Below, in pieces: positions 1 to 59,777 of a stretch of 64,000 bases of DNA. The notes below the pieces were generated by a model. It had not been told where the DNA came from. It was given only the letters and a program-made list of their open reading frames with translations, and searched no databases. The translations under genes were made by a program, and so were the position numbers. Numbering within the stretch: position 1 is the stretch's first letter; each line of letters opens with the position of its first letter. Location: positions 1 to 64,000 of IMG/VR virus record IMGVR_UViG_3300042991_000131. The stretch is one strand, 5' to 3'. This DNA is from a virus.

Positions 1-867
1 ACCTGGGAAAGCGACAGGCGTGAGTACTATCTACGCTACCTGACAGAACGTGTACCCAAGGTGCAACAGACCGCGCCGATGGCCATTGGTTCGGCATTTG
101 ATGGTATGGTCAAGAACGCGATTGAAAAGATGCTGGGCCTCGATGTAAAGGACTACACGCGCCAGGTTGAGGGCGAGATTGACAGTGCTGTGCACTGTCA
201 GGCTATGAAGGAAGGCGCCCGCGTCCTTGATTTCTATCGTCAGGTTGGTGGGATCAATAGATTATTAGTGACGGGTGTACCACGGATGGAGTTCTCTGTC
301 CAATGTGCCGTTCCCGGTACCGAATCCTGTATAGGTGGACCGGTCATCCTCTTAGGGAAACCTGACTTATACTATAGGGTTGGGCATAGGATTGTGCATG
401 ATTGGAAGGTGAATGGTTACTACAGTAAAGCATCGCCACAGAAGGGCTATGTGTGGGATTCGAAGACCCGGTCGCATCATAAGGATATCTTTCCCAAGAA
501 GGTTGGTTCACTGTCACTAGGACGCAGTGATTATTTCAACCCTGAGTGGCTGGATCAGTTGACCGGGTATGGTTGGTGTCTAGGTGAACCGATTGGGGAA
601 GAGTTCGTGCTCCAGATCCATCAGATTACGAACGCCGGGGGCGATGCCCCCGGAGCCGCATTACGTCTGACCGAGCACCGGGTACTAGCTGATCCTACGC
701 ATCAGCTGTCCCTTCGGGACAGGCTCGTCGGCTGCTGGGAGGCTATCCACTCTGGTAGAGTATTTACCGATATGACATTGGAACAGGATCTTGCAGAGCA
801 GGAGCATTGCGACAGGATTGCTGCCGGTATGCAGGACTCGGTCTTTAATCTTGTGTGTGGAAGGTAA
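1..867 (+). CDS. PD-(D/E)XK (RecB/Cas4-like) nuclease, 5'-truncated by the window edge
   Basis: The reading frame is open from base 1, so the GTG at 61 is internal and the true start lies before the window. The visible part is 288 codons. It contains the core of the PD-(D/E)XK nuclease fold: Pro-Asp at codons 121-122 and, twelve residues later, Asp-Trp-Lys at codons 134-136, preceded by a helix with a GSAFDGMVKNAIE segment that matches the first RecB-family motif. Such phage nucleases act as DNA exonucleases in recombination or host DNA breakdown. It probably closes the plus-strand replication cluster that also occupies the right end of the window. The nuclease fold is well supported; the exact role is not. 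Confidence 0.75.
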   Translation, partial: TWESDRREYYLRYLTERVPKVQQTAPMAIGSAFDGMVKNAIEKMLGLDVKDYTRQVEGEIDSAVHCQAMKEGARVLDFYRQVGGINRLLVTGVPRMEFSVQCAVPGTESCIGGPVILLGKPDLYYRVGHRIVHDWKVNGYYSKASPQKGYVWDSKTRSHHKDIFPKKVGSLSLGRSDYFNPEWLDQLTGYGWCLGEPIGEEFVLQIHQITNAGGDAPGAALRLTEHRVLADPTHQLSLRDRLVGCWEAIHSGRVFTDMTLEQDLAEQEHCDRIAAGMQDSVFNLVCGR

Positions 868-1297: not shown

Positions 1298-2470
1298 TGT
1301 CATTTTGACATGGCCTCAGTACTGACTAGTATTGATACTAGGGTCCGTCTGGATATAGGTTCAGACAGTATACGGGTGCCATTCTGACCCTATAAATAGC
1401 GCCATTCCTAGCCATTATTCTGCCGACCCTAGCCAGGATATGAGTTTGCCTAGATAGTGCGCCATTTGCACAGGAAAGGGCATTGGCGAGCCTTCTAGGG
1501 CATTGGTGAAGGGCCATTTGACTTTCCAAGGGGCATTGGATAAAAACTAGATCACTGACAAGGGGCCTATTCCTTATCTTTCATATAGACTAATTTTATT
1601 TTATAAATAGTCTATTAAAGGATAAGAGAGGTTAGTATGAGTCAATTAGTAAGTGTCTATAGGACAAGGACTTAGGAACCCGTAAAAAGTGACTGCTTTT
1701 GTACAATTTGCCGTAATGTTGTAAGTGCTTATATGCCAACATGCTTGGACAAAATGCATCCACCGGTTTTCATGTCGTTTTGATACACCATGTCACTTTG
1801 ACATAGTAGCGGGAGCAGACATACAGGTGTTGACTTTATCGACAAGTGTGTTGCATATCGCAACGTGTGACAATAATTGTCATAAGAGATATTAGTAACT
1901 GGTTAACAACTTTGGACAAATAGTGCTCCCCGTACTATGACCTAAATACTCCTATAATCTACCATGTCATAATGACATGGTACACCGTGTCATAATGACA
2001 CGATAAAATGTAATCTAACCACTGACAAAATTTGTCACAAGAGCCTTAATCAAGCACCATGCTCAAAAGCGTCTTGTCTACGTCTGTCACAGACCGGCTA
2101 TACAGGCAAAATAAAATGGATAGGTTTACCGAAACAGGCGTTTTATATAATACGCTCAAAACACCCACCAAAATAAAAGAGTCCAGCAGTCAGATTAATC
2201 ACCTTCTCATGGGTAAAATAATGATTAATCAGGCATATAGGTTCCTGGTGATAAAAAGTGAATACCAGGCCATAAAAGTCCTTTTCGGTATCTTAGAAAC
2301 CGATAATGACTTTTAATGACTGTCAGTGATAAAAAGTGATTATGAGTATCCAAGATACTCGATGTACCTTTTCGGTATCCAAGATACTCGATAGGCCATC
2401 CCGGTACTTGGCACAAAACAATACCGGTCCCACGAAAACCAGGCCGGGCGCTGGCCATGTCGTAATGACA
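1298..2470. promoter_or_regulatory. array of TGTCA/TGACA operator-like palindromes
   Basis: Two related palindrome classes recur. Class I is TGTCA-N3-TGACA (or TGTCG for the first half): 1298-1310, 1791-1803, 1965-1977, 1988-2000, 2458-2470. Class II has the half-sites everted, TGACA-N5-TGTCA: 1868-1882 and 2023-2037, with a further copy at 43553-43567. The copies at 1965 and 1988 are extended to 21 and 17 bp and lie 23 bp apart, about two helical turns. This looks like a binding-site array for a dimeric DNA-binding protein, for example one of the three ParB-like proteins or an unrecognised regulator. Confidence 0.7.
1570..1726 (+). repeat. duplicated intergenic module, copy A
   Basis: Imperfect direct repeat of 43377-43533. 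The 30 bases 1697-1726 are identical to 43504-43533, and the left part (1570-1625) is a close match of 43377-43432. The left part can fold: CTTATCTTT pairs with AAAGGATAAG and ATAGACTA with TAGTCTAT. Confidence 0.85.
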
Positions 2471-3125: not shown

Positions 3126-3148
3126 GGGGTTTCCTTCTGCCGGGGTTA

Positions 3149-3220
3149 GGGTCCAGCGTCAGGGGCCGGAAGGGATCTTCCGGCCCCTGACGCTGGACCC
3201 TTGGCGTTGTGCGCCAAGGG
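3149..3220 (-). other. double hairpin with a 24-bp perfect stem
   Basis: 3149-3172 pairs perfectly with 3177-3200 around a 4-nt loop, and 3198-3206 pairs with 3212-3220, so the two stems share the GGACCC edge. It occupies most of the gap between two minus-strand genes. No T run follows, so simple intrinsic termination is doubtful; attenuation, RNA processing or protein binding are alternatives. Confidence 0.7.
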
Positions 3221-3231
3221 TCCAGCCGGTA

Positions 3232-4155
3232 TCAGTTCGCGTGCTTCGCGATCCAGTCCGACACGGCCTTGCCGTCACCCGTGGCGAGGATCGTGCCGAA
3301 TTCGCGTAGGTTGCCCGTCGCCTTTTCGTTCACGGTCTGGAGGGCCTTGGCTACGCTCTGGATGCTGACGGCCTTCTCGCGGGTGCTGGTCTGCATCGCC
3401 GCCAGCATCGCCGCCGCCTCGCTGGCGGTCGGGGTCGGACGCTTGCCCTTCGTGTCGGGCAGCAGGCTGGCCCACTCTTCCTTACCGGGGCAACGTGCCG
3501 TGTAGTCGGGGGTCAGGTCATGCATCACGATCGCGGAGGCGGCGCGGTGCATGAGCTGGCCGTCGCCACGCTTCACCTTAGCGAGTGCCATCAATTCGGA
3601 CTCCGACAAGAGCCGGTTGGCGCGAAGTGCATCCGTCGCCGCCTGCACCTTGGCCCACGCATCCAGCCGCGAAGCCATGTCATGCAGGCCGTTGGGAATG
3701 ATCCCGGCCGCTTCCGCCGCCTGCTCCGTGGTCGCCTCGATCCCCTGACAGTCGATATCCTCCCGGCCGCACCCGACCGCGATGATAGCGGCGATGCAGC
3801 GGCGGCGACCGTCCAGCGCGATCCCAGCCGCCTTGCGGTCGGCGATATCGGCCAGCCGACGCTTGAAGAGTTCGATGGTTGTCCCGTTGATGATCGGTTT
3901 GACGGTCCCGCTTTCGGCGCGGCGGGTGTCCAGACCGGCAGTCACTTCCGCCGCCAGTTCGGCCATGGTGATCTTGTCATCGTTGCGGGTGTAGAGGATA
4001 GCGGCGGTCGGCAGGATGGAGAAACCATCGCGGAGCATGAGTCCCGCCAGTCCGGACATACCGGCGTTGGCAAGGCTGACGGCCTCCTGTCGCACCGTCC
4101 ATGTGCTGGAGCGGCCGGGGTTCGGGAGGTTCGGGTTAAAAGTGAAGAGGCGCAT
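3232..4155 (-). CDS. ParB-like putative DNA-binding protein
   Basis: 307 residues from the minus-strand ATG at 4155, chosen because AGGA lies seven bases upstream; an open extension to 4296 has no ribosome-binding site. The N-terminal half has an LDGRRRCIAA segment resembling the ParB/Spo0J nuclease-like core (IDG.HR...A), followed by a helical region (about residues 150-220) where ParB proteins carry a helix-turn-helix. The C-terminus is helical and Ala/Lys-rich. GC content is far above neighbouring virion genes. No ParA is seen. It may bind sites in the flanking control regions or act as a transcription regulator. The family call is tentative. Confidence 0.45.
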   Translation of the reverse strand: MRLFTFNPNLPNPGRSSTWTVRQEAVSLANAGMSGLAGLMLRDGFSILPTAAILYTRNDDKITMAELAAEVTAGLDTRRAESGTVKPIINGTTIELFKRRLADIADRKAAGIALDGRRRCIAAIIAVGCGREDIDCQGIEATTEQAAEAAGIIPNGLHDMASRLDAWAKVQAATDALRANRLLSESELMALAKVKRGDGQLMHRAASAIVMHDLTPDYTARCPGKEEWASLLPDTKGKRPTPTASEAAAMLAAMQTSTREKAVSIQSVAKALQTVNEKATGNLREFGTILATGDGKAVSDWIAKHAN

Positions 4156-4481
4156 GGGGTAGTCCTTTGGACTGGGGTTTGTGGAATTGGCCGGGAAGGT
4201 TGCGGGGTCGACACTTGGCCGAGTTGTCGCTTCCTTCCCTTCTGAGGGCAGGTTGTAGGGCCGGGGAGCATGGTGCAATGGCTTTCTTCGGACCATGCGG
4301 AATCAATAAATTGTCGCTTGCCTTTTCCTCCCGAGCATATCAGGGTCGCGGCCTGGTTTTTGTCTGTGATAACAGATGCAAGCATCGAGTCATCTGTATC
4401 AGTCACTAGTGTATCACTGTCCAAACTTGTCGCTTGACATCGAGTGTGTCACACCGGCCTGGTGGGAGGGTTAGTTTGCGC

Positions 4482-4773: not shown

Positions 4774-4890
4774 GGGGAGCACTTTCTGACAAGAAACGTT
4801 TTCTGGTTATAATTTTACGGGCCTTGCCGTCTAGTAGAGTGTAGCAAGGCTGCGAGCTTGATTAACAATCCTTGACAGAAAGTGCTCCCC
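4774..4890. repeat. inverted GGGGAGCACTTTCTG arms flanking the small-terminase leader
   Basis: 4774-4790 and 4874-4890 are inverted 17-mers with one mismatch, 83 bp apart, the second ending directly at the small-terminase ATG. Further copies of the core lie at 1209-1222, 1244-1256 and, inverted, 1922-1931. Confidence 0.8.
4786..4813 (+). promoter_or_regulatory. probable promoter of the virion operon
   Basis: CTGACA (4786-4791) and TATAAT (4808-4813) with a 16-nt spacer, about 80 bp before the small terminase gene; the -35 hexamer overlaps the left inverted-repeat arm. Confidence 0.6.
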
Positions 4891-5499
4891 ATGGCTCTTG
4901 ACACTTCGATTAAGCGTTGCGAAGCAGACAGTCCTAATCGCTGCCAAGCCCTTGGCGCGCAGGGCAGCCAGTGTCTCAATGAGGCAATGAGATTATCGGA
5001 TGGTACTTTTGCTAAGAACTGCTCATTCCACGGTGGCGTGGATGAAGAGAACAAAAAGTCAACCCATAGGCAGAATATGTACCGTCTAGCTAAGTTCGGT
5101 GAGCGGGTCAAGGATTTCGCCAGCCATAATCAGGTGAAAGGTCTCCGAGACGAGATTGGCATCCTGCGTATGGTCCTAGAGGAACGCCTGAATAGGTGTC
5201 AGGATAATGACGAGCTGATCCTGTCCTCGAACGTGATCGGCGACTTGGTACTCAAGATCGAGCGCCTCGTTACTTCTTGCCATAAGCTGGAAGCGTCGAT
5301 GGGTCAGCTACTCGATCGTCAGCAGATTATCCAGTTCGCCGAGGCTGTAGTTAAGGTAGTGGCAGATCATATTCAGGATCCTGCTGCTTTGGCGCTTATT
5401 GCTGGTGCTATCGAACGCATCACTGAGGAGCAGTTAAGCGGCGCGGAGAAGAAGCATGAAGAGGCTAAGTCAACGCCTATGCGTACGGCTCTTGAGTAG
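4891..5499 (+). CDS. terS: terminase small subunit
   Basis: 202 residues from ATG 4891; GTG 4882 is in frame but falls inside the inverted repeat. The N-terminus has a Cys pattern ending in CSFHGG (RCQA ... QC ... CSFHGG). Similar Cys...CxxHGG segments are familiar from proteins encoded just before phage large terminases. The remainder is helical with heptad-like stretches, as expected for an oligomerising small terminase. It lies six bases before the large subunit, with which it would recognise packaging DNA. The call rests mainly on position and the cysteine motif. Confidence 0.7.
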   Translation: MALDTSIKRCEADSPNRCQALGAQGSQCLNEAMRLSDGTFAKNCSFHGGVDEENKKSTHRQNMYRLAKFGERVKDFASHNQVKGLRDEIGILRMVLEERLNRCQDNDELILSSNVIGDLVLKIERLVTSCHKLEASMGQLLDRQQIIQFAEAVVKVVADHIQDPAALALIAGAIERITEEQLSGAEKKHEEAKSTPMRTALE

Positions 5500-5504
5500 C
5501 CACC

Positions 5505-7148
5505 ATGTCGATCCTAGGCAACCTGCTACGTGATCGCGTAGCGGCTGGCCTAAGCAGAAAAAGTATCCAGTCCTGCTCTGCTTGGGCATTAAAATATCGG
5601 GTGATGGGTAAGCCTTATCCGGGTCCATGGTCTTTTGAGAATCATCCCTGGTTAAAGGACATGCACGACTGCCGCGATGAGCTAATTGTCGGGCAGAAGT
5701 CAGCACAGATGGGCTACACAGAGGTAGCACTTAATCGTAGCTTCTACACGATTGACGTACTCGGCGAGTCAGTCCTGTATATCTTACCAGCGTCAACCCC
5801 TGACGCAACAGACTTTTCCACGAGCCGCTTCGACCCGGCGCTAGAACTATCAGAACATCTAGCTAATCTCTTTAGTGACGTTAAGAACATAGGCCATAAG
5901 CGCGCTGGGTCAGCTAATTTATTTATCCGCGGTTCACGGTCCAGGAGCCAATTAAAGAGCTTACCAGTCAGCACAATCATCGAGGACGAAGTCGATGAAA
6001 TGGTGCAGGAAAATATCGCACTTGCTGCTGAACGTACATCTGGTCAGTTAACTAAATCAATATATAAAATCTCCACCCCGACAATAGATAACTACGGTAT
6101 CAATGCAGATTTCCGCAATTCGTCCCAGGATCACTACTGGTTCCAGTGTCCGCACTGTAACCGGCTAGTCGAGCTAACGTTTCCAGCCTGTTTGGTAATC
6201 ACAGCTGAGGATTGGACAGACGATAGTATTTATAAGAGTCACGTCATATGCCCAGCGTGTAAGCATGAGCTAGAGCACGCGGCGAAAAGAAGCATCCTTA
6301 AGTCTGGCAGGTGGGTGCCAACCTACTTGAACAAGACTGCAAGAGGCTTTCACATTAATCAATTATACTCTCCGACAGTTCGACCGTTTGACATTGCCAT
6401 AGCCTGGCTAAAAGCTCAAACGAATCCCTCTGACGAGCAAGAGTTCTATAACTCAAAGCTGGGTTTGACCCATGCTGTTGAGGGCGCGAAGATTACTGAT
6501 GCTCAGATAGCTAAGCTAATCGCTGGTTACAAGAAGCAAGTCAAAGGTCGTCCAGGCACAATAGTTACGATGGGCGTAGACGTAGGTAAATGGCTGCATG
6601 TGGAGATTACCGAGTACATAATCACTGGCAACGGTCCAGACGTCAATACACTCTCCCATGCTAGAGTCATCCATCAGGTCAAGGTACTCAATTTTGAGGA
6701 CCTAGACAGTCTGATGGTCGAGTACGGTGTGAACTTCTGCTGCATAGACGCGAACCCAGAACGGCGCAAGGCCATGGAGTTCGCGCAAAGGCAATGGGGT
6801 AGAGTAAAATTAGTGTTCTACGGTGTCGGCATAAATAGTAAAGTAATCTCTGTACACTCCGATGAAGAGCATACGATTACTGTTGACAGAACAAGCTGGC
6901 TGGATCTATCGCTGGGACGGTTCAGGAATGAAAAGATAGCTCTACCGGCTGATACAGATATCGAATATAAGCAGCAACTCAAGGCTCTGGTGCGCATCTA
7001 CGCCAAGGACCAACAGGGTAATCCTGTTGGTAAATACGTTTGTGGTAACGAAGATGATCACTATGCGCATGCTCGCAACTACAATGAGATAGCTTTCGCG
7101 ATGGCAGCTGGAAATGTCGGTCACTCAGATATACGATCACCAGTATAG
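5505..7148 (+). CDS. terL: terminase large subunit, lambda GpA-like
   Basis: 547 residues. The ATPase half has a divergent Walker A at residues 63-72 (GQKSAQMGYT), the form used by the GpA family, and a Walker B with catalytic acid at 157-164 (STIIEDEV). A zinc knuckle follows (C215/C218 with C249/C252), also typical of GpA proteins. The nuclease half has acidic positions at D359 (MGVDVG) and D415 (CIDAN), consistent with an RNase H-like fold. It pumps DNA into the procapsid and cuts it. GpA relatives are often cos-type, but packaging mode cannot be read directly here. Confidence 0.9.
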   Translation: MSILGNLLRDRVAAGLSRKSIQSCSAWALKYRVMGKPYPGPWSFENHPWLKDMHDCRDELIVGQKSAQMGYTEVALNRSFYTIDVLGESVLYILPASTPDATDFSTSRFDPALELSEHLANLFSDVKNIGHKRAGSANLFIRGSRSRSQLKSLPVSTIIEDEVDEMVQENIALAAERTSGQLTKSIYKISTPTIDNYGINADFRNSSQDHYWFQCPHCNRLVELTFPACLVITAEDWTDDSIYKSHVICPACKHELEHAAKRSILKSGRWVPTYLNKTARGFHINQLYSPTVRPFDIAIAWLKAQTNPSDEQEFYNSKLGLTHAVEGAKITDAQIAKLIAGYKKQVKGRPGTIVTMGVDVGKWLHVEITEYIITGNGPDVNTLSHARVIHQVKVLNFEDLDSLMVEYGVNFCCIDANPERRKAMEFAQRQWGRVKLVFYGVGINSKVISVHSDEEHTITVDRTSWLDLSLGRFRNEKIALPADTDIEYKQQLKALVRIYAKDQQGNPVGKYVCGNEDDHYAHARNYNEIAFAMAAGNVGHSDIRSPV

Positions 7149-12169: not shown

Positions 12170-13519
12170 ATGGCCAAAATAACCAATAAAAGCCAACTCA
12201 ACGTCGGTACAGAACTGACGATTGACGAAGTGGCTCGCACATTCACACTAAATGTGGCCGGTAATCTAGTCGCCAAAGATGGCGTCAGTATACAGGCACT
12301 ATATTCCAAGTTTGTCGATCTCTGGACTAACATGAGTTATCAAGACAGCCCGTTCCCGATGTATGCCATCGACGTGCTGTCTGGCCAGTTCCAATTCGGT
12401 ACAGACGGAAGCACATTCAGCGGCTGGAAACCAGCTAATGACACTGTTCGCAATATGCTTCGTGATGGTGGCTGGTCAGAATATTCAGCTGCTGGTGTGC
12501 TTAATCGACAATATGCTGGTTTTAATGGTCTAGGCGGCATCAACACTGGTGCGCAGCCTTATTATCATCTTGATGCAGCTGATGCTCCTACGAATTTTCC
12601 ATTTGATGACCAGTTCAATGTCGGTGTGCAAGTCTTTGGTGATGCTGCCAATGGTAACTTCGACAAGCGCACCTTTGCCAAAACATTCGTGCGTGAGTAT
12701 GGCAAGAAGTATAAGGACTCGGTCCTAGCCGATACTGGTAAGACTGCTACTGGTGCCTTCAAGGTCGATTTCTTGATTAGTAATGAAGATGACCTTAAGA
12801 TCCAGGCTAATGACGCTGCCATGACTGGCGCGCCCTATAGCGGGATTACTGTTGAGTTCTTCGCTGTTGACCAGATGAAGACAATTGGTGGCGGTAGCTA
12901 CCCTTTCCGGATTATCATCGAGGGTAACAACGCTACACTTGAGCAGATTTACACAAAGGTCCAGTACCTGCTTCGTCAGGCCACTGATATTGACGCTGGC
13001 GCTGGTACAGTCACTGGTAAGACTGCTGCCGCTATGTTGGAGTTCGTTGGCGATACGCTTAACACTAAGACTGGCGTCTTCATCAACAATATTCAAGCAA
13101 ACGACATTAATCGCATAGTTCTGAAAGATCAGAACGGTGTCGATCGCACATATCCGTATGTGGCTGCTGGTACTCTGAGCTTTAATGCTTCGCTAATCGG
13201 TGCAGGTTCTAGCTATCGCCTGATGTTCACAGCGCCTCCTGGTGCTGGCAATGATTACGGCGAAGCTGGTGCTATCACTGTGAATGATGGTAGCGGTACG
13301 CCGATCACTGGTACGATTAGTGCAGCCTCGATAGGCTTCACCTTCGACTACGACGGTAACGTTCAAGGTGGCTTCACTGCTGGCACTGATCGTCCTGTCA
13401 CCTTGATCGGTATCCGCCCCGGTTACGGTAAGTTCGCTGTCGCAACCGGCACACTGTCCCGCTCAAAGGGCATAAGCCTCTCGCTTGTTGCTGAGCAGGA
13501 CCGCGCGTATGCGGCCTAA
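12170..13519 (+). CDS. virion structural protein, 449 residues
   Basis: Follows the appendage gene by eight bases. It starts with a beta-rich segment and has many aromatic-Gly-Asp turns (for example YQDSPFPMYAIDVLSGQFQFG) and a beta-sandwich-like C-terminus. No enzyme motif is visible. The block 8901-14145 appears to be one module: composition, spacing and alternating Ser/Thr/Gly-rich beta proteins are shared. Probably exposed on the virion; exact location unknown. Confidence 0.55.
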   Translation: MAKITNKSQLNVGTELTIDEVARTFTLNVAGNLVAKDGVSIQALYSKFVDLWTNMSYQDSPFPMYAIDVLSGQFQFGTDGSTFSGWKPANDTVRNMLRDGGWSEYSAAGVLNRQYAGFNGLGGINTGAQPYYHLDAADAPTNFPFDDQFNVGVQVFGDAANGNFDKRTFAKTFVREYGKKYKDSVLADTGKTATGAFKVDFLISNEDDLKIQANDAAMTGAPYSGITVEFFAVDQMKTIGGGSYPFRIIIEGNNATLEQIYTKVQYLLRQATDIDAGAGTVTGKTAAAMLEFVGDTLNTKTGVFINNIQANDINRIVLKDQNGVDRTYPYVAAGTLSFNASLIGAGSSYRLMFTAPPGAGNDYGEAGAITVNDGSGTPITGTISAASIGFTFDYDGNVQGGFTAGTDRPVTLIGIRPGYGKFAVATGTLSRSKGISLSLVAEQDRAYAA

Positions 13520-36968: not shown

Positions 36969-37655
36969 TCAGAATAGTCCGCCAGCCTTCAGTAGTCGCT
37001 TGTAGACTTCAGCAGTCTTCAAGCAATCGGCTAGCGCATCGTGAGCCTTGTCTCCGCCAATCCCGAGCGTGGTAGCTAGGTACTGCAAGTTAACCTTCGG
37101 GAAGGGTACCTTCTCAGCACGCATACCAGCGCGGTCATTCATGAACAGTGCGCTATTCATCGTATCACGATAGTGATAATGGAAATATTGATTGTACTGC
37201 TCAACACCGAGCCAGGCTTGAATAAAAGCCTTGTCGAAGCTGTAGTTCTGACCAAGCGGCATAATCTTGTTGCCATTGCCATACTTGTTGTTCTTGATGC
37301 CAAGCTTCTTGAACCAAGCCTCAAACATATCGGCAGCCTTATCGCGGTCGAAGCCGGTGTTCATGATGTTGGCCATGTCGAGCTTGTTAATCTCGATGGC
37401 CTTAGCATCTACGCGCTCGGGATAGTTGGGCTTCAAGTTCACATAGAAGGGCATCATGCCCTTTAGCGGATTGAAGTTGCTATCAAGGGCTATGACACAA
37501 ATCTGCACAATCTCGTGGAAGTTCGGATCCAGACCAGTTGTCTCAGTATCCATGACACAACACATGTTGTTGTTGAAATGTACCATAGCGTAATTGCCTG
37601 GATCGAAAGGCTCATTAGCTACTTCCTTGTCCAGATTAGTAATAGTATCTGCCAT
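36969..37655 (-). CDS. DEDD 3'-5' exonuclease (DnaQ/RNase T-like)
   Basis: 228 residues with AAGGAA eight bases before the ATG. Motif I is MDTETTGL (D36, E38); motif II lies around YSFDKAFIQAWL, and motif III is AHDALADC with H and D five residues apart, the DEDDh type. Such enzymes proofread or trim nucleic acid ends. Last gene of the minus-strand operon. Confidence 0.8.
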   Translation of the reverse strand: MADTITNLDKEVANEPFDPGNYAMVHFNNNMCCVMDTETTGLDPNFHEIVQICVIALDSNFNPLKGMMPFYVNLKPNYPERVDAKAIEINKLDMANIMNTGFDRDKAADMFEAWFKKLGIKNNKYGNGNKIMPLGQNYSFDKAFIQAWLGVEQYNQYFHYHYRDTMNSALFMNDRAGMRAEKVPFPKVNLQYLATTLGIGGDKAHDALADCLKTAEVYKRLLKAGGLF

Positions 37656-37657
37656 GA

Positions 37658-38179
37658 CTATGTTCCTTCGTGAGCGTAGAGTGTGCGATTAACTATCTTT
37701 GACAGCTTCGGCCTTGATAGACCATACTTACTACATATCTCTTTGTTATTTATACCAGATCCATGCATCTTGCGAATGTTAACTATGTCCTCATCAGAAA
37801 ATCGTTGACGAGGATTGCCATCTTGAGACCATTTAATGCGTTGCGCCTTTGGAATATCGGTGAAGTTCGCGCTGTCATTACCTATCAGGATATTATCTGG
37901 AAGATTATTAAGCTTATTATTGTCCTTATGTCTGACGACAATCGCTTCAAGAAATATCTTATCTCCAAATTTCTGATAGGCTTGAAGCCTGTGCACAAAT
38001 ATATTAACCGATTTTGTCTCATACTGTATACAGAAAGTAAGATACTCGTTTCGTACACAACCATCCAGTATCTTGCCTACAGGATTAACTATCTTGCCAG
38101 TTGCACTAATCTTGTAGCCTTTCTTGGCTGCATAGATTAGTGCTCTATTAGCAAGTGTAGGAGTATCCAGAAACAACAC
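37658..38179 (-). CDS. HNH homing endonuclease
   Basis: 173 residues from a GTG that overlaps the previous TAG. Contains the HNH_3-type core (VHRLQAYQKFG ... VRHKDNNKLNN ... NI) and a C-terminal helix-turn-helix (about residues 125-165: DEDIVNIRKMHGSG ... CSKYGLSRPKLSKI) for DNA targeting. Free-standing, inserted inside the replication operon. A related but divergent set occurs at 53.4, 58.4 and 60.2 kb. Confidence 0.75.
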   Translation of the reverse strand: MLFLDTPTLANRALIYAAKKGYKISATGKIVNPVGKILDGCVRNEYLTFCIQYETKSVNIFVHRLQAYQKFGDKIFLEAIVVRHKDNNKLNNLPDNILIGNDSANFTDIPKAQRIKWSQDGNPRQRFSDEDIVNIRKMHGSGINNKEICSKYGLSRPKLSKIVNRTLYAHEGT

Positions 38180-38439
38180 TATTTCTTCCTTATCGGGATG
38201 AGTAGTGCGCGGACAACCTTGGTACCTTTATGCTTCCAGTACCTAGCTTGGCTTCTGGAACCGTAGACAACTATATGAGCTTCATCTGGTTGTTCTTCCA
38301 TCCAGCCTAACTTAGCACCGGACTTGACCAACTGGTCAATAGCAGTAATCTGATCAGCTAGTAGCTCAAGCTCCTTGCGCTTGTTGCGTGGTAGCTTGGC
38401 TGTCTGCCTAGTTATGAAGTTACCTTTTGACGTACTCAT
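38179..38439 (-). CDS. 86-residue basic protein
   Basis: Start at 38439 preferred over 38481 because an AAAGGG lies upstream and the start overlaps the preceding gene as elsewhere in this operon. Basic N-terminus (STSKGNFITRQTAKL), a helix, then a short beta segment. No motif recognised; unknown. Confidence 0.5.
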   Translation of the reverse strand: MSTSKGNFITRQTAKLPRNKRKELELLADQITAIDQLVKSGAKLGWMEEQPDEAHIVVYGSRSQARYWKHKGTKVVRALLIPIRKK

Positions 38440-38599
38440 TGAGCGCCCTTTCAAGAGCTTGTTGGAGTTCAGCGGGATCATACTCTATAGGCATAACGCC
38501 GGCATTGACACTTATATGTATATCGTATATCTGGTCACGAAAGATGTAGCCCTTGGCTTCCTTCGTACTGTGCTGGACGAACATTCTTTCAATGAGCAT
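38420..38599 (-). CDS. 59-residue hypothetical protein
   Basis: ATG at 38599 with AAGGA upstream, overlapping the methylase stop region; ends inside the next gene. Small alpha/beta protein with no motif. Kept as a gene because of the RBS and coupled spacing. Confidence 0.5.
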   Translation of the reverse strand: MLIERMFVQHSTKEAKGYIFRDQIYDIHISVNAGVMPIEYDPAELQQALERALNEYVKR

Positions 38600-39464
38600 T
38601 GCTTTCCTTAATCCAGAGTTTCTCGGTGGCATCACCACGATTAGTGTCACCGTGGCTCTTGTTGTTCTCGTCAGTGAAGGCTAACGCCTTGGCTGTCGAT
38701 CTAACATCCCAATGGAATACCTTATCCCAGGGCTGCTTGTCGTACAGTGGATTAGGATATCCGCTGATAGCGACGAAGCCCTTGAGCGTAAATATCGTCT
38801 CGATGAGCTTCGTATGTTGCTCAATGCTCATTTCATATTCATACGTGCCGCGGAATGCATCTACATACGGCGGATCAAGGTAGAACACAGTATCGACGCT
38901 ATCATAGTCGCGCAGTATATTGCTCCAGTCAGCGTTCTCTATTTGGACTTGCTTGAACCGATCATGAATCTCAGGAAGCGACCTAAGACCATTCCTAATC
39001 TTTCCAGCAAGACTACCGTCACCGCCAGTAGAACGACCCCAATTACGACCAAGACTACCAAAGGAATAATTAACCATAGCGAACCAACGTCCAGCCCTTT
39101 CAACAGGATCCTTCTGATCTTGCCACGTATCCCGGTTTGCCAGGAACTCTTCCCGGCTATGTAGAGTATTGTCCAACCAAGCACAGAGACGATCAAAGAG
39201 AACGCGATCACGCATGCAACGATAGAAATCAGTAACGCCTGAATGTCGATCATTGAATACCTCTAGCTTGCTTTTGGGCCGATTAAGCGTGATAACTGCA
39301 CTGCCACCGAATACCTCTACCCAAACCTTGCGTACAGGCAGGTGCTCCATGATGTATTTCACGGAGCGGCTTTTACCACCTGGATAACTGAATGGTGCTT
39401 TGACGATTGTTTCGCGCTTCTCGGACTGTTCACTCTGTGCATCGAGGCTATCGAAAAGCGTCAT
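38589..39464 (-). CDS. D12-class DNA adenine methyltransferase (Dam-like)
   Basis: 291 residues. AdoMet-binding motif FSYPGGK at 25-31 (the FxGGK form of the D12 class) and catalytic DPPY at 197-200, in the order typical for Dam-like enzymes. Methylates the N6 of adenine, probably to protect phage DNA from restriction. The recognition site cannot be read from sequence. Overlaps dNMP kinase by four bases. Confidence 0.85.
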   Translation of the reverse strand: MTLFDSLDAQSEQSEKRETIVKAPFSYPGGKSRSVKYIMEHLPVRKVWVEVFGGSAVITLNRPKSKLEVFNDRHSGVTDFYRCMRDRVLFDRLCAWLDNTLHSREEFLANRDTWQDQKDPVERAGRWFAMVNYSFGSLGRNWGRSTGGDGSLAGKIRNGLRSLPEIHDRFKQVQIENADWSNILRDYDSVDTVFYLDPPYVDAFRGTYEYEMSIEQHTKLIETIFTLKGFVAISGYPNPLYDKQPWDKVFHWDVRSTAKALAFTDENNKSHGDTNRGDATEKLWIKESNAH

Positions 39465-40027
39465 TTCCGTGTCCTGTAGAAGATTTGCTCGATCAGTCCG
39501 TCAAGCTGATAATGACTACCACTGTTGTCAAACACGATATCGAACATATAATCGGGAATGGGCATTTCACTCGCATGCAGGAGGCCAAGCATGCGCCTGA
39601 TATGCCAGATAGCGCGCATGAATATGTTACTCACCTGTATACCACGACCTTTCAGCTTAACCGTAACGACACTCCCGACGATACCAAATGACTTAGCGGC
39701 TTCATACTCATTGCGGAACCTAAGGTCATCGCAGATGATTACCTCGTTGTCAAGTTCCAGGTCAACGAGTGCTTTCTTCCACTTGCTGACCCACAGATCC
39801 TCGCTGATGCACTTGCGGCCACACTCAGTACCAAGGAGTTGAAGCAGGCGACGACCCTTAGCATCCTTCTTCCCGTCCCAGCCAAGTAGCTTGGCATAGT
39901 CCTTGAGTGGCTTAGCGAAGGGCAGCACAGTAGCTGTATGCCCCTCCATCTTAGCCCTCTCAGCAATAAGATTGGCTATGGTCGATTTGCCGCTGCCCAT
40001 AGGGCCATGTAGAACAACGATAATCAC
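39461..40027 (-). CDS. deoxynucleoside monophosphate kinase
   Basis: 188 residues with a Walker A at 8-16 (GPMGSGKST) and a P-loop kinase layout (ICDDLRFRNEYEAA as the Walker B region). Resembles phage dNMP kinases that phosphorylate dTMP, dGMP and related nucleotides. It acts with dCMP deaminase and ThyX, encoded elsewhere in the window, to supply dTTP. Confidence 0.75.
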   Translation of the reverse strand: MIIVVLHGPMGSGKSTIANLIAERAKMEGHTATVLPFAKPLKDYAKLLGWDGKKDAKGRRLLQLLGTECGRKCISEDLWVSKWKKALVDLELDNEVIICDDLRFRNEYEAAKSFGIVGSVVTVKLKGRGIQVSNIFMRAIWHIRRMLGLLHASEMPIPDYMFDIVFDNSGSHYQLDGLIEQIFYRTRK

Positions 40028-40212
40028 GGTGTGACCTCCGGTGCGCTCATGCGCTCGATGCTATCAGCTAGCACCTTCAATTGGAGGCCGAAAACACGAG
40101 CTTCATTTGGCGTAAGCTCCACATGAAGAGTAACGCCATTCGAGTTTTCAAGACCCAAGAGTATTGCAGGCTTTTTGTTCTCGGTAGGCAGGATGCCAGC
40201 TAGGACTTTCAT
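40024..40212 (-). CDS. 62-residue hypothetical protein
   Basis: ATGA-coupled on both sides inside the minus-strand operon. Small alpha/beta protein with no motif recognised. Real by overlap and frame context only. Confidence 0.5.
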   Translation of the reverse strand: MKVLAGILPTENKKPAILLGLENSNGVTLHVELTPNEARVFGLQLKVLADSIERMSAPEVTP

Positions 40213-40400
40213 GGTTTCTCTCCGTAAGCGTAAAGCCCTTCACGGGCGGTTGTGGTGACTTCAGCAGGGATATTGACACCAACCCAATAATGCTTACCTT
40301 TGTACTCTACATCGAACTTGGCCGTGTACTCATTCTCGAAGGCATCGCGCATCTGGAGATACTCATCTGGCATCAGGGATTCGAGTAGTTCACTAATCAT
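40209..40400 (-). CDS. 63-residue hypothetical protein
   Basis: Between the primase-helicase and the 62-residue gene, overlapping both by four bases. Acidic helix followed by beta segments (YKGKHYWVGVN). No recognised family. Confidence 0.5.
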   Translation of the reverse strand: MISELLESLMPDEYLQMRDAFENEYTAKFDVEYKGKHYWVGVNIPAEVTTTAREGLYAYGEKP

Positions 40401-43084
40401 GACACTAGATCCAGGAAGGTATCAATCAACGTCCAGATTTTACCCTCTTCAACAACCTGTGGCTGAGCCTTGAACTCGATGTTACCAATGTAGAATTGAT
40501 TATCCTTACGGCTACGACCCTTCGGGAAGTGATGCGGTAACTCTTTGCCTACACGTATCTTCGACCAGCGGCTAACCTGATTCGGGTCACACTTCTCAAG
40601 GAACCTATCGTAGAGGTCGCTGAACTTGAGCGTGGCTCCTGGCTTCTTAATCGTATACTCATCGAGGAACACTTCAAGCTCATTTCTGTTCAAGCTCTGG
40701 GCAAGCAGCTTATCTTCAGTTTCGATGGCCGGAATATTGAGGCGATCATTAGAAGCAGGTAGCTCTAGATTCAATACCTCAGCTAGAAAGTCAGGTGCCT
40801 CCTTCTCCAGCAGCACAGTTATTTGCTTCCTAGGGATTAGATCCGCAACAGGGATCCGCTCCACATGGATCATAACGATACGAGTATCTTCCCCAAATAT
40901 GGGACAGGACTGATAATCGTTAGAGCATTGTACCCAGTGGGTCGTATTCGGGACTTGGTAGGGCGTGCCGCCCTTAGGATGAATAAGAAGCTCACGCCCA
41001 GTGACCCAATCTTTAATCCTATTATATGCCACCTTATTATTCTTGAGGTCGATTTCTTCGACCGAACAAAGGATAGCTCCATGAAGCTCATCATTGAATC
41101 CTTGCTGTGATGTTAGAGCAGCTTCTGCCTTCTGGCATCCTTTAGTCAGGAGAAGCTGTATACTCTCCCAGAAACTACTCTTACCAGTGTTCTGTTCCTT
41201 GCTGTGGAAGAATAGATATGGCAGCGGTTGGCCAGGCTCTCGCAGCATGCTGGCGATCCAGCATTTCAGGTAGTCTGCGCCGGTGAGTATACCGTTACTC
41301 TTGCACCAGGGATTTTTCTTAACTGCCTCGTTAAGTCCCTTGCCACAGTGATTGAGAATCTTTTGCCATGTTGGGTACTGGAGATTATCTGTATCTTGTG
41401 TTGGTGTGAACCGAAACTGAGCAGCGTTCCTGTTCCATTCGCGGTCGCCGGGATACTCAGACTGGAAAGGCTTATTCACAATCCGCCATGGACGTAGAAC
41501 AGCACCACCAACTACACCAGTGACCTCTTCACCTTTGAGGCCAGTCGATGCCAGTGCCTTGAGTACGTGACTCAGAGGCTCAGCACACCATTCGATATCA
41601 GACTTGATTACCCAACCAGCATCCTCGCCGCCACTAACAAGGTGCCGTGTCATATCGTCATAGTTACCAACTTCAACCTCAGTCTTAGCAGTTGTCTGCG
41701 TGTTGTAGAGTCGGATCCACTTATCCTTCTCAGGTAACCAGCCAGGCATTTCCTCTGCCTTATCGCTATCCTTACGCTCGACCGTGACCTGTAATCTTCC
41801 GTCTTTGTGATGCTTGAGCTTTGTCTCGCGTGTCGAGTAATGGCTTGTTAGATTAAGATGCACACCAAGTAGAGCAGCAGCCTTCATGGCCGTCTCAGAC
41901 TCTCTGAAATTGAACGCTCCCTTTGTATCTTCTAATCCACCAAACGATTTGGCGGCCGTTGGTAGGTCTGCCTCGCGATTCAGATAGCACCGAGTCCAGC
42001 CACTAGAATCTTGCGTCCACGACTCATGTTCCTGCACACCCATACCGAAACGGCGTACAGACCATGAGCCACGACGTTGTGGATATGCAAAAACGTTCTG
42101 GCCATTAAGATCCTTACCTTGAGATGATGTATCGAACACGCCTTTAAGCCCAAGGTCTGTGTGAGCTTTTTTGAGCCATACAGTATGTGTAACAAGCATA
42201 TGATTATCTTGATCCCACCACCACATTGCATCGTTGGTCTTAAGATACTCGATCAGCTTCTTATGCTCATCATCCAGAGGAATCTTAGGTTGCTTACCAG
42301 TAAGCTCCTCGAAAACATCAGTCTGACCAGCAGACTCAATATCTTGTGGCAGATTCTTGCGACGGGTGCCGCTAATCACCTTAACGTGATCTTTCCAGTT
42401 AGCTGGAACATCCGTCAGTACACAACCCTGCTTAATCATTGTCAGGCCATCTGTACCAACCATCTTACGTGCCCATACCCACATATTACCGCCACAAGTG
42501 TCTACTTTAGACACATAATCGTAGCCTGTCAACGCAGATAGCTTACCTAGGATAGCACGTGCAAGAGCAGCATGCTCCGTGTGCGTATTCGTAGGTACTT
42601 CATCTAGCAGTACATATAGGTGTAGACCCTTACCAGCGGTAGACTTGCGTACTGTGACCCAATCAACATTCATTGCAGCTTGCTTAACCTTCTCAAGTTC
42701 CTCGTTGCTTAGCTTCTTCGTATGTTTGTCACTGTGACCAGTAATCGCATCAAAGTCAAAAGCTACCCAGCGAGAAACCTTGTTGAACCAATCCCAGCCA
42801 GTCATACCGATAGCTTCGGCATGAGCGGCCAGATCGTACTTCATGTCTGAGTCTTTGTACTCAGGCTCAGTATTAGCCTTGTACGGAATACGGAAAGGCT
42901 TCCAAGTGGTAGCTCCGTCCGACCATCCCTGCCAACGCTTGCCCTTGAACTCACCCTCTATACGCTCACCGCCATCTTGTGCGACGTTAATCTGCACTTC
43001 CATGTTGTGATTATAGAGCTTTGCCAGGTCTTCACGCGTCACAGCGTGAAGGAACCTGCTAATCGCTTCAGTCTTTGTCGGCAC
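40397..43084 (-). CDS. primase-helicase (AEP-like primase plus SF3-type helicase)
   Basis: 895 residues. The N-terminal half has primase motifs DFD (110-112) and a STAGKGLHLYV segment (about 148-158), as in archaeo-eukaryotic primases of phages. The C-terminal half is a superfamily 3-like helicase with Walker A at 628-637 (SKEQNTGKSS) and Walker B at 671-680 (ILCSVEEIDL), as in D5-type proteins. It would open and prime the replication fork. First gene of the operon; its leader has a 14-bp inverted repeat of the GATTTGATTA family. Confidence 0.8.
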   Translation of the reverse strand: MPTKTEAISRFLHAVTREDLAKLYNHNMEVQINVAQDGGERIEGEFKGKRWQGWSDGATTWKPFRIPYKANTEPEYKDSDMKYDLAAHAEAIGMTGWDWFNKVSRWVAFDFDAITGHSDKHTKKLSNEELEKVKQAAMNVDWVTVRKSTAGKGLHLYVLLDEVPTNTHTEHAALARAILGKLSALTGYDYVSKVDTCGGNMWVWARKMVGTDGLTMIKQGCVLTDVPANWKDHVKVISGTRRKNLPQDIESAGQTDVFEELTGKQPKIPLDDEHKKLIEYLKTNDAMWWWDQDNHMLVTHTVWLKKAHTDLGLKGVFDTSSQGKDLNGQNVFAYPQRRGSWSVRRFGMGVQEHESWTQDSSGWTRCYLNREADLPTAAKSFGGLEDTKGAFNFRESETAMKAAALLGVHLNLTSHYSTRETKLKHHKDGRLQVTVERKDSDKAEEMPGWLPEKDKWIRLYNTQTTAKTEVEVGNYDDMTRHLVSGGEDAGWVIKSDIEWCAEPLSHVLKALASTGLKGEEVTGVVGGAVLRPWRIVNKPFQSEYPGDREWNRNAAQFRFTPTQDTDNLQYPTWQKILNHCGKGLNEAVKKNPWCKSNGILTGADYLKCWIASMLREPGQPLPYLFFHSKEQNTGKSSFWESIQLLLTKGCQKAEAALTSQQGFNDELHGAILCSVEEIDLKNNKVAYNRIKDWVTGRELLIHPKGGTPYQVPNTTHWVQCSNDYQSCPIFGEDTRIVMIHVERIPVADLIPRKQITVLLEKEAPDFLAEVLNLELPASNDRLNIPAIETEDKLLAQSLNRNELEVFLDEYTIKKPGATLKFSDLYDRFLEKCDPNQVSRWSKIRVGKELPHHFPKGRSRKDNQFYIGNIEFKAQPQVVEEGKIWTLIDTFLDLVS

Positions 43085-43126
43085 ATCAGTCCTTTCCAGG
43101 TTGATGGTTAATCGTAAATGGCCTTC

Positions 43127-43157
43127 TTGATTTGATTACAACGTGTAATCAAATCAA
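43127..43157. promoter_or_regulatory. GATTTGATTA inverted repeat
   Basis: Perfect 14-bp inverted repeat (43127-43140 with 43144-43157, 3-nt loop) just upstream of the primase-helicase ATG. Other copies of GATTTGATTA lie at 49115, 49189, 62504 and 62701. Confidence 0.75.
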
Positions 43158-43376
43158 CTTGATATTTACTGGTATCTTAAAAGTACCGACATATCACTGA
43201 TATATGTAGCTGACTGCTTACTGACTAGACGGCAAAAGGACTGCAAAATATAATGGTTATATTTTATTTTACGGTATCAAACTATGCAATAACTCATTTC
43301 TTTTCTGGTTACTGAAAAGTCACTTTTGTAAAGTGTTCCAGGGTAATGGCTTACGGAATGTCTGACTAGGCCCCGT

Positions 43377-43533
43377 TTCCTTATCTTTCCTATAACCCTA
43401 ATTTTATTTATTATTATTCTATTAAAGGATAAAGGAAGATAGTAATAGTAAAGCGGTAAGTCGCTAGCATATAAGCACTTATAGACCGCTAAAAATTGAC
43501 TAATTTTGTACAATTTGCCGTAATGTTGTAAGT
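43377..43533 (+). repeat. duplicated intergenic module, copy B
   Basis: Counterpart of 1570-1726. 43504-43533 is identical to 1697-1726; 43377-43432 is a close match of 1570-1625. The middle parts differ. Confidence 0.85.
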
Positions 43534-43656
43534 CATTGCTACAACTCACGCTTGACAAAAATTGTCAGACTGTTTTATAGGTTCAAGTGGACCCATGCAC
43601 CAGGGCCGAGCCGTCAAACTGGACCCTAGAACACTGCCAGGATCGACGCTAGCCCT

Positions 43657-43741
43657 GTTTCCTGTTGATCCTAGCGACTATTCCGGCGGAATGGTGCTAG
43701 GTTGTCGTCCGCTATATTAGTCGCTAGGATCGACGGGAAAC
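43657..43741. repeat. 23-bp imperfect inverted repeat
   Basis: 43657-43679 pairs with 43719-43741 with two mismatches, enclosing a 39-nt segment with a small palindrome (ATTCCGGCGGAAT). Possible origin or protein-binding structure. Confidence 0.75.
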
Positions 43742-43807
43742 CCGGTTATATTTTACGACCCTTTGCCGTGTAGGCTATTGACAGACACTCGAAAAGACGC
43801 TAATTTC

Positions 43808-43943
43808 GAGTTACGAGTAACTCATAAATCAACCGATTATTGAGGTACTCATAATTCGTTAATCATTCCGATTGACGAATTGAACTGCTAATCATCCTTA
43901 CCATGTGGATGATTAGTTAACCTATTCTAGTGCTGCGCAGCAC
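43808..43943 (+). promoter_or_regulatory. four-hairpin leader of the ParB-like gene
   Basis: Consecutive inverted repeats at 43808-43823 (GAGTTAC/GTAACTC), 43853-43881 (12 bp, one G-T), 43888-43916 (10 bp) and 43930-43943 (GTGCTGCGCAGCAC), followed by AAGGAG and the GTG start. May be RNA structure, or DNA sites for the ParB-like product. Confidence 0.65.
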
Positions 43944-43956
43944 AAGGAGAACACAC

Positions 43957-44916
43957 GTGGGTGATATCAAGAAGATTAGCTTAGCCCTCATTCGTGAGAA
44001 CGAGGTTGCTCTGCGTACCGTCAACCGTGAGTCCGAGGATTACCTGGGCCTGGTTGAGTCGATCCGCCAGAAGGGCTTCATGGGCGCGATTACCGTCCGT
44101 GCGAAGGTCGATGCCGAGACGAAGGAGCATTTCTACGAGCTAATCGACGGCCTCCATCGCTTCAACGCGTCGAAGGACGCGGGGCTGTCGGAGATTAACG
44201 TCGATGTGGTGGATCTGAATGAGGACCAGGTTCTCGAAGCTCAGATCATGACGAACATCCACAAGGTGGAGACCCGTCCGGTCGAGTATTCGCAGCAGCT
44301 CAAGCGCATCCTGACCCGCAATCCGCTGATGACCGAGAGCGAGCTGGCTGTCAAGCTCGGCAAGTCGCCGGTCTGGATTAAGGAGCGTCTGGGCCTGACC
44401 AAGATCACCAACAGCGAGATTACTGCCCTCATCAACGATGGCAAGATCAAGCTGGCCAACGCCTACGCTCTGGCCAAGCTGCCCGAGACCGAGCAGCAGG
44501 ACTTCGTTGAGCGTGCGATGACCCTCAGCCCGGACGAGTTCGTTCCGGCTGTCCAGGCTCGCGTCAAGGAGATTAACGAAGCCAAGCGTCAGGGCAAGGA
44601 AGCCGGCGCCGCCGAGTTCGTCCCGACCCCGCACCTCCAGAAGCTCAGCGACCTCAAGGCGCTGCTGGAAAACCGTACCGCTGCTGCCAAGCTCGTCGCG
44701 GGCGTGTCGGATCCGGTCGAGGCTGCCATCATCGCGATTAAGTGGGCGCTCCACCTTGACGCCGACAGCGTTGCCGCTGCCAAGGCCAAGGATGATGCCC
44801 GCCGCGCCGAGCAGGCCGAGGCGAAGAAGAAGCGCGATCAGGCGAAGCTGGAGAAGGCTGCCGCCGCCGCGAAGGATGCCGCTGAGAAGGCCGCCGCTGC
44901 CGCGAAGCAGGGCTAA
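43957..44916 (+). CDS. ParB/Spo0J-like DNA-binding protein
   Basis: 320 residues from GTG 43957, with a full AAGGAG seven bases upstream (an open extension to 43930 has none). ParB core signatures: ELIDGLHRFNASKDAGL, then a helix-turn-helix region with ESELAVKLGKSPVWIKERLG. The C-terminal ~80 residues are a Lys/Ala/Glu coiled coil. GC-rich codon use. No ParA nearby. It may bind its own palindromic leader or the control regions. Confidence 0.8.
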   Translation: MGDIKKISLALIRENEVALRTVNRESEDYLGLVESIRQKGFMGAITVRAKVDAETKEHFYELIDGLHRFNASKDAGLSEINVDVVDLNEDQVLEAQIMTNIHKVETRPVEYSQQLKRILTRNPLMTESELAVKLGKSPVWIKERLGLTKITNSEITALINDGKIKLANAYALAKLPETEQQDFVERAMTLSPDEFVPAVQARVKEINEAKRQGKEAGAAEFVPTPHLQKLSDLKALLENRTAAAKLVAGVSDPVEAAIIAIKWALHLDADSVAAAKAKDDARRAEQAEAKKKRDQAKLEKAAAAAKDAAEKAAAAAKQG

Positions 44917-44930
44917 TCATTTGAGGAGCG

Positions 44931-44950
44931 CGCTCCTCAAAGTCCTACGG
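44931..44950 (+). terminator. palindrome just after the ParB-like gene
   Basis: 20-bp perfect palindrome (TTGAGGAGCG/CGCTCCTCAA) 15 bp after the stop. No T run; may terminate, or mark the 5' end of the structured RNA that follows. Confidence 0.55.
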
Positions 44951-46120: not shown

Positions 46121-46139
46121 ATCATTCCACGGAGCCAAG

Positions 46140-49116: not shown

Positions 49117-49216
49117 TTTGATTAGCAGTTATATTTTGTAAAGTTTTGCCGTATAGTATGTTAGAGGATAGGCACCTATGCCTGTTCTGATTTGATTACC
49201 TCCAACAAGGATTATC
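49115..49216 (+). promoter_or_regulatory. control segment before the second ParB-like gene
   Basis: Two GATTTGATTA copies (49115-49124, 49189-49198) flank a GTTATATTTTGTA segment followed by TTGCCGTATAG, a motif also found near 4.8, 43.5 and 43.75 kb. Likely promoter plus operators for the 49217 gene. Confidence 0.55.
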
Positions 49217-50074
49217 ATGGCTCTTGCATCGACTGTATTAGAAATCCCGATTAGCGAAATATTGATTGACGAGGACTTCAACTGTCGTGGGCAGATTGCG
49301 CCTATTGACGTTGTTGATCTTGCCAAAGATATCGAACGTCAGGGATTAATTCAACCTGTCACAGTGATGGCGGTTGAAGGATTACCAGACGGTAAGAAGT
49401 ACAAGCTTCTTGCTGGTTTCCGGCGCTGCAAGGCTCATATTGTTCTGAAGAAGCCGACAATCTCAGCCGTCATACGTCTGGACAAGCTGACCGACGCTGA
49501 CGCTCGGGTGATTAACCTAGCTGAGAACCTGCATCGCAAAGACTTAAATGTTCTCCAGGAGGCCAAAGCGATTAGGCATTTGTTCATCTTCTTTGGAGAA
49601 GCTGAAGTTGCCAATCGTCTCGGTCAGTCTCGCGGCTGGGTCCAGATACGTGCCATGCTTCTCAAGCTGCCCGAAGTCGTGCAGAAGGAAGTTGAAGCTG
49701 GCATGATTAGCCACACGAACATTCGTGAGCTATATGCGATCCATCGCGCTGGCAACATGGACAATCTCTACGCTGCTGTCCGCAAGATTAAGGACGGTAA
49801 GCTCAAAGGCTTGAAGAAGGTGACAGTTAATCCTGCCATCATCGGCCAAGAGGCTACTGGTAAGTTATTAAGGAATAAGAAAGAAATGGAGGCCATGACA
49901 ATGTTCCTAGTCGATAGAAAGTGTAAGGGCCTGCATACTCGATTACTGGCATGGGCAGCTGGAAACGTATCGACAGAAAATATCGTTACTGATATTTCAG
50001 CTTGGGCCGATGATCAGGGCATCGAGTTCGTTCAACCTACAAAAGAAGAATTAGAGGCAATATGCGCGCGGTGA
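49217..50074 (+). CDS. ParB-like DNA-binding protein (second)
   Basis: 285 residues with AAGGA before the ATG. ParB core: LLAGFRRCKAH, NLAENLHRKDLNVLQEAKAI and a following helix-turn-helix (EAEVANRLGQSRGWVQIR). Distinct from the other two ParB-like genes, so not a recent copy. Many GATTA words fall inside it. Overlaps thyX by 13 bases. Confidence 0.8.
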   Translation: MALASTVLEIPISEILIDEDFNCRGQIAPIDVVDLAKDIERQGLIQPVTVMAVEGLPDGKKYKLLAGFRRCKAHIVLKKPTISAVIRLDKLTDADARVINLAENLHRKDLNVLQEAKAIRHLFIFFGEAEVANRLGQSRGWVQIRAMLLKLPEVVQKEVEAGMISHTNIRELYAIHRAGNMDNLYAAVRKIKDGKLKGLKKVTVNPAIIGQEATGKLLRNKKEMEAMTMFLVDRKCKGLHTRLLAWAAGNVSTENIVTDISAWADDQGIEFVQPTKEELEAICAR

Positions 50075-59775: not shown

Positions 59776-59777
59776 TC

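Follow-up and report, generated by a model that had tools for sequence, protein, structure and literature searches.

A duplicated intergenic module at two loci of a siphovirus-like phage genome as a candidate replication-initiation and divergent-promoter region

Besides its origin, the alpha protein of phage P4 also uses crr iteron sites. The P4 origin itself has iterons (PMC4234260). Replication proteins that combine an AEP primase with an SF3 helicase use an adjacent stem-loop of about 100 nt, which is required in pRN1, and such a stem-loop origin has been proposed for phage BIP-1/BPP-1, but specific binding of the pRN1 replication protein to the stem-loop could not be shown (PMC4234260). 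In cluster O mycobacteriophage, two AT-rich repeat regions have been suggested as possible origins (PMC4351075). The phage genome described here seems to share features with several of these systems: a putative AEP PrimPol-SF3 helicase protein is encoded next to the region of interest, as in the pRN1/BPP-1 type, and the same repeats are found at two separate cis loci, as in P4.

The window, that is the whole stretch of 64,000 nt that was analysed, belongs to a record of 76,820 bp. The ends of the record overlap by 147 bp at 99%, which implies a circular or circularly permuted genome that is near-complete. The phage is siphovirus-like, with terminase (5505), portal (7157), major head protein (15796) and tape measure (20518) genes. 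A leftward block, 36969-43084, has the primase gene at its end, and the rightward genes encode a ParB-like protein, a helicase, a second ParB-like protein, thymidylate synthase and DNA polymerase. A tRNA-Thr gene (46045-46120) overlaps the start of an ORF at 46095-46619. The primase matches the C-terminal region of the NrS-1 polymerase both by profile (E 4e-9) and by Foldseek (E 3e-6), and in a model of moderate quality (pLDDT 81, pTM 0.54) the fold of its N-terminal part is similar to that of AEP PrimPol domains; thus, the protein appears to be of the PrimPol-SF3 type, the helicase being clear and the AEP part being suggested by the predicted fold. Searches of phage records by megablast gave zero matches, as did a direct query of IMG/VR with the 30-mer core described below and one internal protein, and in Rfam only a tRNA was matched and neither copy of the module.

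Self-BLAST aligned 1555-1726 with 43362-43533 at 77.5% identity over 173 columns (E 5e-22). This is the top internal repeat of the window and, the terminal overlap aside, the strongest one of the 76.8-kb record. The imperfect duplication 41.8 kb apart that the sequence-only reading had noticed is thereby confirmed, but its left edge lies about 15 bp further out than the 1570 and 43377 given there. The 30 identical bases claimed for the right end, TTTTGTACAATTTGCCGTAATGTTGTAAGT, match exactly between 1697-1726 and 43504-43533, and no further occurrence was found in the genome with up to 3 mismatches allowed. Both copies are outside credible genes, as had been thought: copy 1 in gene-free DNA past 1154, ahead of the structural cluster, and copy 2 within the 846-bp divergent space between the primase gene and the ParB gene. 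The class II palindromes said to accompany the copies do so, since TGACAANNNTTGTCA is found at 1868, 2023 and 43553 of the window, three occurrences as compared to 0.13 expected, each of them in one of the two regions.

The composition of the copies can be described by three elements (Table 1): an AT-rich central element (C-box), a 27-bp palindrome (O-box) and a promoter-like element (P-box). The end blocks of the central element, CCTTATCTTTC and CTATTAAAGGATAA, are identical between the copies, and the centre of copy 1 resembles the centre motif of the phage family, for example CCTCTATATTAAAGGATATTTAG at the second locus of relative G035. Of the "conserved foldable left part" in the sequence-only reading, the sequence is conserved but the fold is not; when the 67-nt left segment was compared to its own shuffles, z was -2.95 for copy 1 and 0.02 for copy 2, and a conserved hairpin or RNA was rejected on the latter value. 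The middle had been described as diverged, and the inner spacer does differ, but GTAAGT-N15-ACTTA is kept in both copies (1649-1674 and 43456-43481); what has diverged is the spacer within an O-box that is itself conserved. Only three O-boxes of at least 17 bits exist in the 76.8-kb genome, one in copy 1 and one in each arm of the copy 2 region. The left-arm O-box at copy 2 had been overlooked in the first reading. Copy 2 is the right half of a full divergent region, where two O-boxes are placed 128 bp apart with the C-box centred between them, and copy 1 is a half-module of C-box and O-box at a second gene-free locus, between g61 and terS (hereafter locus B). A distance of 121-131 bp between the innermost O-box pair is found also in relatives G041, G032 and G035. 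Helical phasing of the O-boxes was considered and rejected (R 0.14, p 0.66).

Table 1. Positions of the module elements, palindromes and neighbouring genes in the window.
Feature	Position	Strand	Remarks
g61, last conserved gene ahead of locus B	61..867	+	in 16/24 relatives
Copy 1 central element, C-box-like AT-rich hairpin, CCTTATCTTTC...CTATTAAAGGATAA	1572..1625	+	end blocks; fold z -2.95
Copy 1 O-box, 27-bp palindrome type GTAAGTC-TT-N8-AA-GACTTAC	1647..1677	+	22.3 bits
Copy 1 30-mer, contains TTTGCCGTAAT	1697..1726	+	identical to copy 2; -35 half decayed
TGACAATAATTGTCA palindrome near copy 1	1868..1882	+	
TGACAAAATTTGTCA palindrome near copy 1	2023..2037	+	
P-box 80 bp before terS	4802..4836	+	17.2 bits, rank 2 genome-wide
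terS, small terminase candidate, heads structural cluster after locus B	4882..5499	+	position before terL; 20/24 relatives
PrimPol-SF3 helicase (DUF5906), diverges leftward from copy 2	40397..43084	-	Pfam PF19263, E 4e-15
Left-arm O-box of copy 2 region	43326..43356	-	24.2 bits, best in genome
Copy 2 central element, C-box-like	43379..43432	+	end blocks of copy 1; midpoint between flanking O-boxes
Copy 2 right-arm O-box	43454..43484	+	20.6 bits
P-box in copy 2, towards parB1	43493..43527	+	12.5 bits, rank 6 among all positions of both strands; overlaps 30-mer 43504-43533
TGACAAAAATTGTCA palindrome, just downstream of copy 2	43553..43567	+	
parB1, ParB-like gene, diverges rightward from copy 2	43930..44916 (likely start 43957)	+	ParB_N, HTH_ParB
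P-box 93 bp before parB2	49124..49158	+	17.4 bits, rank 1 genome-wide
parB2, second ParB-like gene	49217..50074	+	ParB_N, HTH_ParB, KorB

Relatives were fetched from IMG/VR with terminase, ParB and primase queries, which gave more than 90 loci, and more than 80 uncultivated relatives were used to interpret the duplication. One gene order, g61 ... terS-terL-portal-MCP ... primase (leftward), gap, parB-helicase-parB2-polymerase (rightward), is found in 25 long contigs, this genome included, and across the relatives the position of the module is retained together with the synteny, which is the comparison that the sequence-only reading had proposed. The gap between primase and parB is spanned by an inverted repeat (E<1e-5) in 34 of 52 distinct gaps, and the repeat is 160-250 bp in the relatives. 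Its arms are about 0.75 identical within one genome, while between genomes the identity decays towards the shuffled level of 0.49, which implies that the symmetry is kept while the sequence turns over. The window is among the few without the full giant inverted repeat and has the O-C-O symmetry only. When each gap was compared to its own genome by BLAST, which is independent of the O-box matrix, a copy was found upstream of terS in many genomes. In the distant relative G010 the two loci share an element of 258 bp at 95% identity, placed in opposite orientation. Extra arm copies are seen just upstream of parB2 in G038 (40328-45256) and G039 (57890-62818), so the module has been multiplied in some relatives. 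Many others, for instance G009, G013, G016 and G017, have other repeats only and no recognisable O-box.

Motif discovery without a seed pattern in 104 outward arms gave three signals, namely TGATTTGATT near ribosome binding sites, the O-box and the P-box, with likelihood gains for the latter two of 266-295 as compared to 35-47 for shuffled sequence. A scan of 25 genomes (1.5 Mb) found 39 O-boxes of at least 17 bits, as compared to 2 with a reversed-matrix control. All except one weak site within an ORF (38 of the 39) are outside large ORFs, and wherever both markers are known they fall either in the PrimPol/parB gap (15) or between g61 and terS (23), counts which are not independent trials given the relatedness of the genomes. 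The O- and P-box matrices were trained on the gaps, that of the window included, so the gap matches are not independent, but those at locus B, terS and parB2 are, and copy 1 was outside the training set. The pairing of O-box loci across the relatives is strongly supported. At locus B, arrays of 3-6 O-boxes without P-boxes occur in G019, G041 and G031, and G035 has the arrangement O-O-C-O-O at both loci. The C-box, of the type CTATATAnAAGG, has a density in gaps that is ten times the genome-wide one, and most of its occurrences are near the gap midpoint.

The O-box is not exclusive to this phage family, as two IMG/VR contigs that lack this PrimPol also have strict O-boxes, and three further strong sites are present in one of them; the protein that binds them may therefore be distributed more broadly than the family. 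In one of the contigs, L186, O-box-like palindromes are found at 300-330, 2118-2148, 5166-5196 and 6847-6877, and in the other, L185, an exact O-box at 12976-13003 lies beside an apparent tRNA gene end. A general bacterial element it does not seem to be: seven bacterial MAGs (23.6 Mb) gave no O-box at up to 1 mismatch. The primase is found also on seven bacterial MAG contigs, which are from different phyla.

The P-box has the consensus TTaAAA-N17-CGTATA (TATAat end) and points outward in 70 of the 104 arms (EM gain 266, 35-47 for shuffled sequence). Both boxes are present in 25 arms, and the spacing from O-box to P-box is 31-33 in 12 of these and 42 in another two. Within 400 bp before a gene, one of the five best P-boxes of the genome was found for primase in 14 of 24 genomes, for parB in 15 of 23, for terS in 6 of 21 and for parB2 in 3 of 21; before terL, portal, MCP and polymerase it was found in 0 genomes. 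The suggestion of promoters of the same class is supported: there is a P-box in copy 2, before terS and before parB2, although in copy 1 it has decayed to a score of -0.3 (rank 709) by three substitutions in the -35 half. As a promoter of terS, copy 1 was therefore rejected, terS having its own P-box, which a CTGACA-N16-TATAAT promoter at 4786-4813 overlaps. The predicted promoter and binding-site anatomy is, as judged from the sequences, well supported. A sigma-like gene, outside the window at 70635-71330 of the record, has a region 4 match and a model that matches sigma factors, and it is found again in the majority of the relatives that have an early region; some weak matches from the iterated search in relatives were ParB genes and were discounted. 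Thus, there is both a shared -35/-10-like element before several operons and a conserved phage-encoded sigma factor, and the sigma-like protein is a candidate reader of the P-box. The P-boxes at terS and parB2 have no O-box, and together with the locus-B O-boxes that have no P-box they make the O/C and P parts separable; hence an operator role at a promoter does not by itself account for the O-C-O unit.

The palindrome TGTCANNNTGACA is exact at 1298, 1791, 1965 and 1988 (0.08 expected), all near copy 1, and such sites are probably operators of another regulator. On either side of locus B and of the terS promoter there are repeats of the type GGGGAGCACTTTCT, which occur in both orientations (1205-1225, 1921-1935, 4774-4792 and 4871-4892). 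Perfect or near-perfect palindromes are found in the gene-poor 1.1-4.8 kb at 2643-2682 (40 bp), 3148-3201 (54 bp) and 1158-1194 (37 bp), the last of which looks like a terminator. A GC-rich ORF of 354 aa on the minus strand (3232-4296) is inserted between locus B and terS and has no match in Pfam, PHROG or the phage family. Palindromes of TGATTTGATT...AATCAAATCA (43127-43157 in the window, and in many relatives) are placed near ribosome binding sites, those of primase and parB as well as of further genes, possibly for translational or transcriptional control.

An explanation of these observations can be that the copy 2 region is where replication is initiated and divergent promoters are placed, and that copy 1 is a second O/C site, similar to a paired origin; we judge this to fall just short of probable. 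The full module would consist of an AT-rich C-box with at least one O-box on each side, the innermost two being about 121-131 bp apart, and of P-boxes that point outward. We propose that a phage protein, most likely the PrimPol-SF3 helicase or a partner such as a ParB-like protein, binds the O-boxes as dimers and bends or loops the AT-rich C-box, which would be opened for primer synthesis. Forks from the divergent region would then run in both directions, the locus-B array would serve as a second or auxiliary origin site, and the phage sigma, reading the P-boxes, would let the divergent replication operons, terS and parB2 be co-expressed. Initiation at the O/C site is plausible from its adjacency to the PrimPol-SF3 gene, the AT-rich centre and the symmetry, and from the example of pRN1 and BIP-1/BPP-1. 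Plain GC skew was rejected as origin evidence, as it follows gene direction; hence the codon-3 skew of rightward genes was used, which goes from -0.053 to +0.030 across the PrimPol/parB region. Such a change of sign is what bidirectional forks would give, but the two sides also differ in having early or structural genes, which confounds it, and the skew gives no sign of an origin at locus B. Of the paired origins in the sequence-only reading, the O-boxes at the same two loci across relatives are thus found, and an origin function is itself plausible. The stronger version, with paired origins about half a genome apart and one of them fused to divergent phage-sigma promoters, is tentative and in our opinion rather unlikely.

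A real possibility, if not the outcome that we expect, is that the module acts in transcription only, with the O-box serving as the operator to which a phage regulator, such as a ParB-like protein, binds for control of the divergent P-box promoters and of other promoters at locus B, and with replication starting elsewhere. The outward P-boxes at the arm ends and their near-constant spacing from the O-box, which would centre an operator or activator site near -60, fit well with this, and the same promoter class is found before terS and parB2. Sigma-70-like matches lie beside some locus-B arrays, such as TGGACA-17-TATACT at 1145 in G019, and in L186, from an unrelated phage, an O-box is followed by a TTGACA-N16-TATACT promoter and a gene. 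However, several genomes lack such sigma-70 matches at locus B, the P-boxes of terS and parB2 do without an O-box just as the locus-B arrays do without a P-box, and an AT-rich centre and a symmetric repeat would be superfluous for simple operators. The opposite orientation of the G010 copies is also more in line with a non-directional site than with a promoter.

The palindrome clusters at an intergenic site, and the two ParB-like genes, one of them beside copy 2, could also suggest a parS-like centromere for partition or tethering. This is improbable, as a ParA-type ATPase (PF13614) was found in 0 of 18 family genomes while all 14 controls were positive, and a tyrosine integrase in 0 of 18, hence no sign of a maintained prophage; a partition site was rejected on the lack of ParA in these genomes. 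The same lack of integrase leaves the recombination sites of the sequence-only reading without support and led us to reject a tyrosine-recombinase site. That the copies are sites of site-specific recombination or inversion, or of packaging (pac/cos), would agree with two direct copies 41.8 kb apart and with locus B being upstream of the terminase genes, but the gene order is constant in the family and a terminase site is not expected at the PrimPol/ParB region, so we regard it as still more improbable. Least of all do we expect a structured RNA or a neutral recent duplication: the left part of copy 1 can fold, but copy 2 folds no better than shuffles and Rfam gave no match, and the relatives share the elements at the same two loci.

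The preferred reading, initiation at the symmetric O/C site, would provide a candidate replication start for a widespread phage group of which no cultivated close relative was found here, and if the paired-origin reading is true, replication and the expression of its genes would be controlled at one symmetric region. The occurrence of O-box, C-box and P-box at two syntenic loci is a signature by which the module can be found in other genomes, and two intergenic fragments of one genome could be decoded through the comparison of about 80 uncultivated relatives.

Promoters of ECF sigma factors, for example the Bacillus sigma-W type, have CGTA at -10. The putative phage promoters are similar in that conservation within the P-box is highest at CGT and a sigma-like phage gene is present, but their -35 side is AT-rich and conserved weakly. 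With cluster O mycobacteriophage, a siphovirus, the phage shares repeated palindromes and a ParB-like gene, but there the sites are 34 scattered ones of 17 bp, as compared to a few 27-bp sites at two loci (PMC4351075). The NrS-1 primase-polymerase has a C-terminal helicase homologous by sequence and fold and an AEP-like N-terminus (PMC8718748; PDB 6K9C); its priming sites are short (TTTGGTTA, GTG), and the passages drawn on here describe no giant inverted repeat with O- or P-boxes (PMC8718748). P4 alpha resembles the putative phage initiator as a primase-SF3 helicase with repeats at two separate cis loci, but it has a Toprim primase and short iterons, where the phage seems to have an AEP type primase and 27-bp palindromes around an AT-rich centre; membership of the P4 type was rejected, since the primase resembles AEP/NrS-1 folds and not Toprim. 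The resemblance to pRN1/BPP-1 lies in the AEP PrimPol-SF3 helicase protein; a large inverted repeat beside its gene, with a sequence that drifts while the symmetry is kept, is shared by most relatives, and the window itself has the O-C-O symmetry only. Their repeat is downstream of the gene, about 100 nt, and without iterons or divergent promoters, while the phage module is upstream, between divergent operons, and has O-boxes, putative promoters and a second locus. It adds to the few PrimPol-SF3 helicase replicons for which an origin has been proposed.
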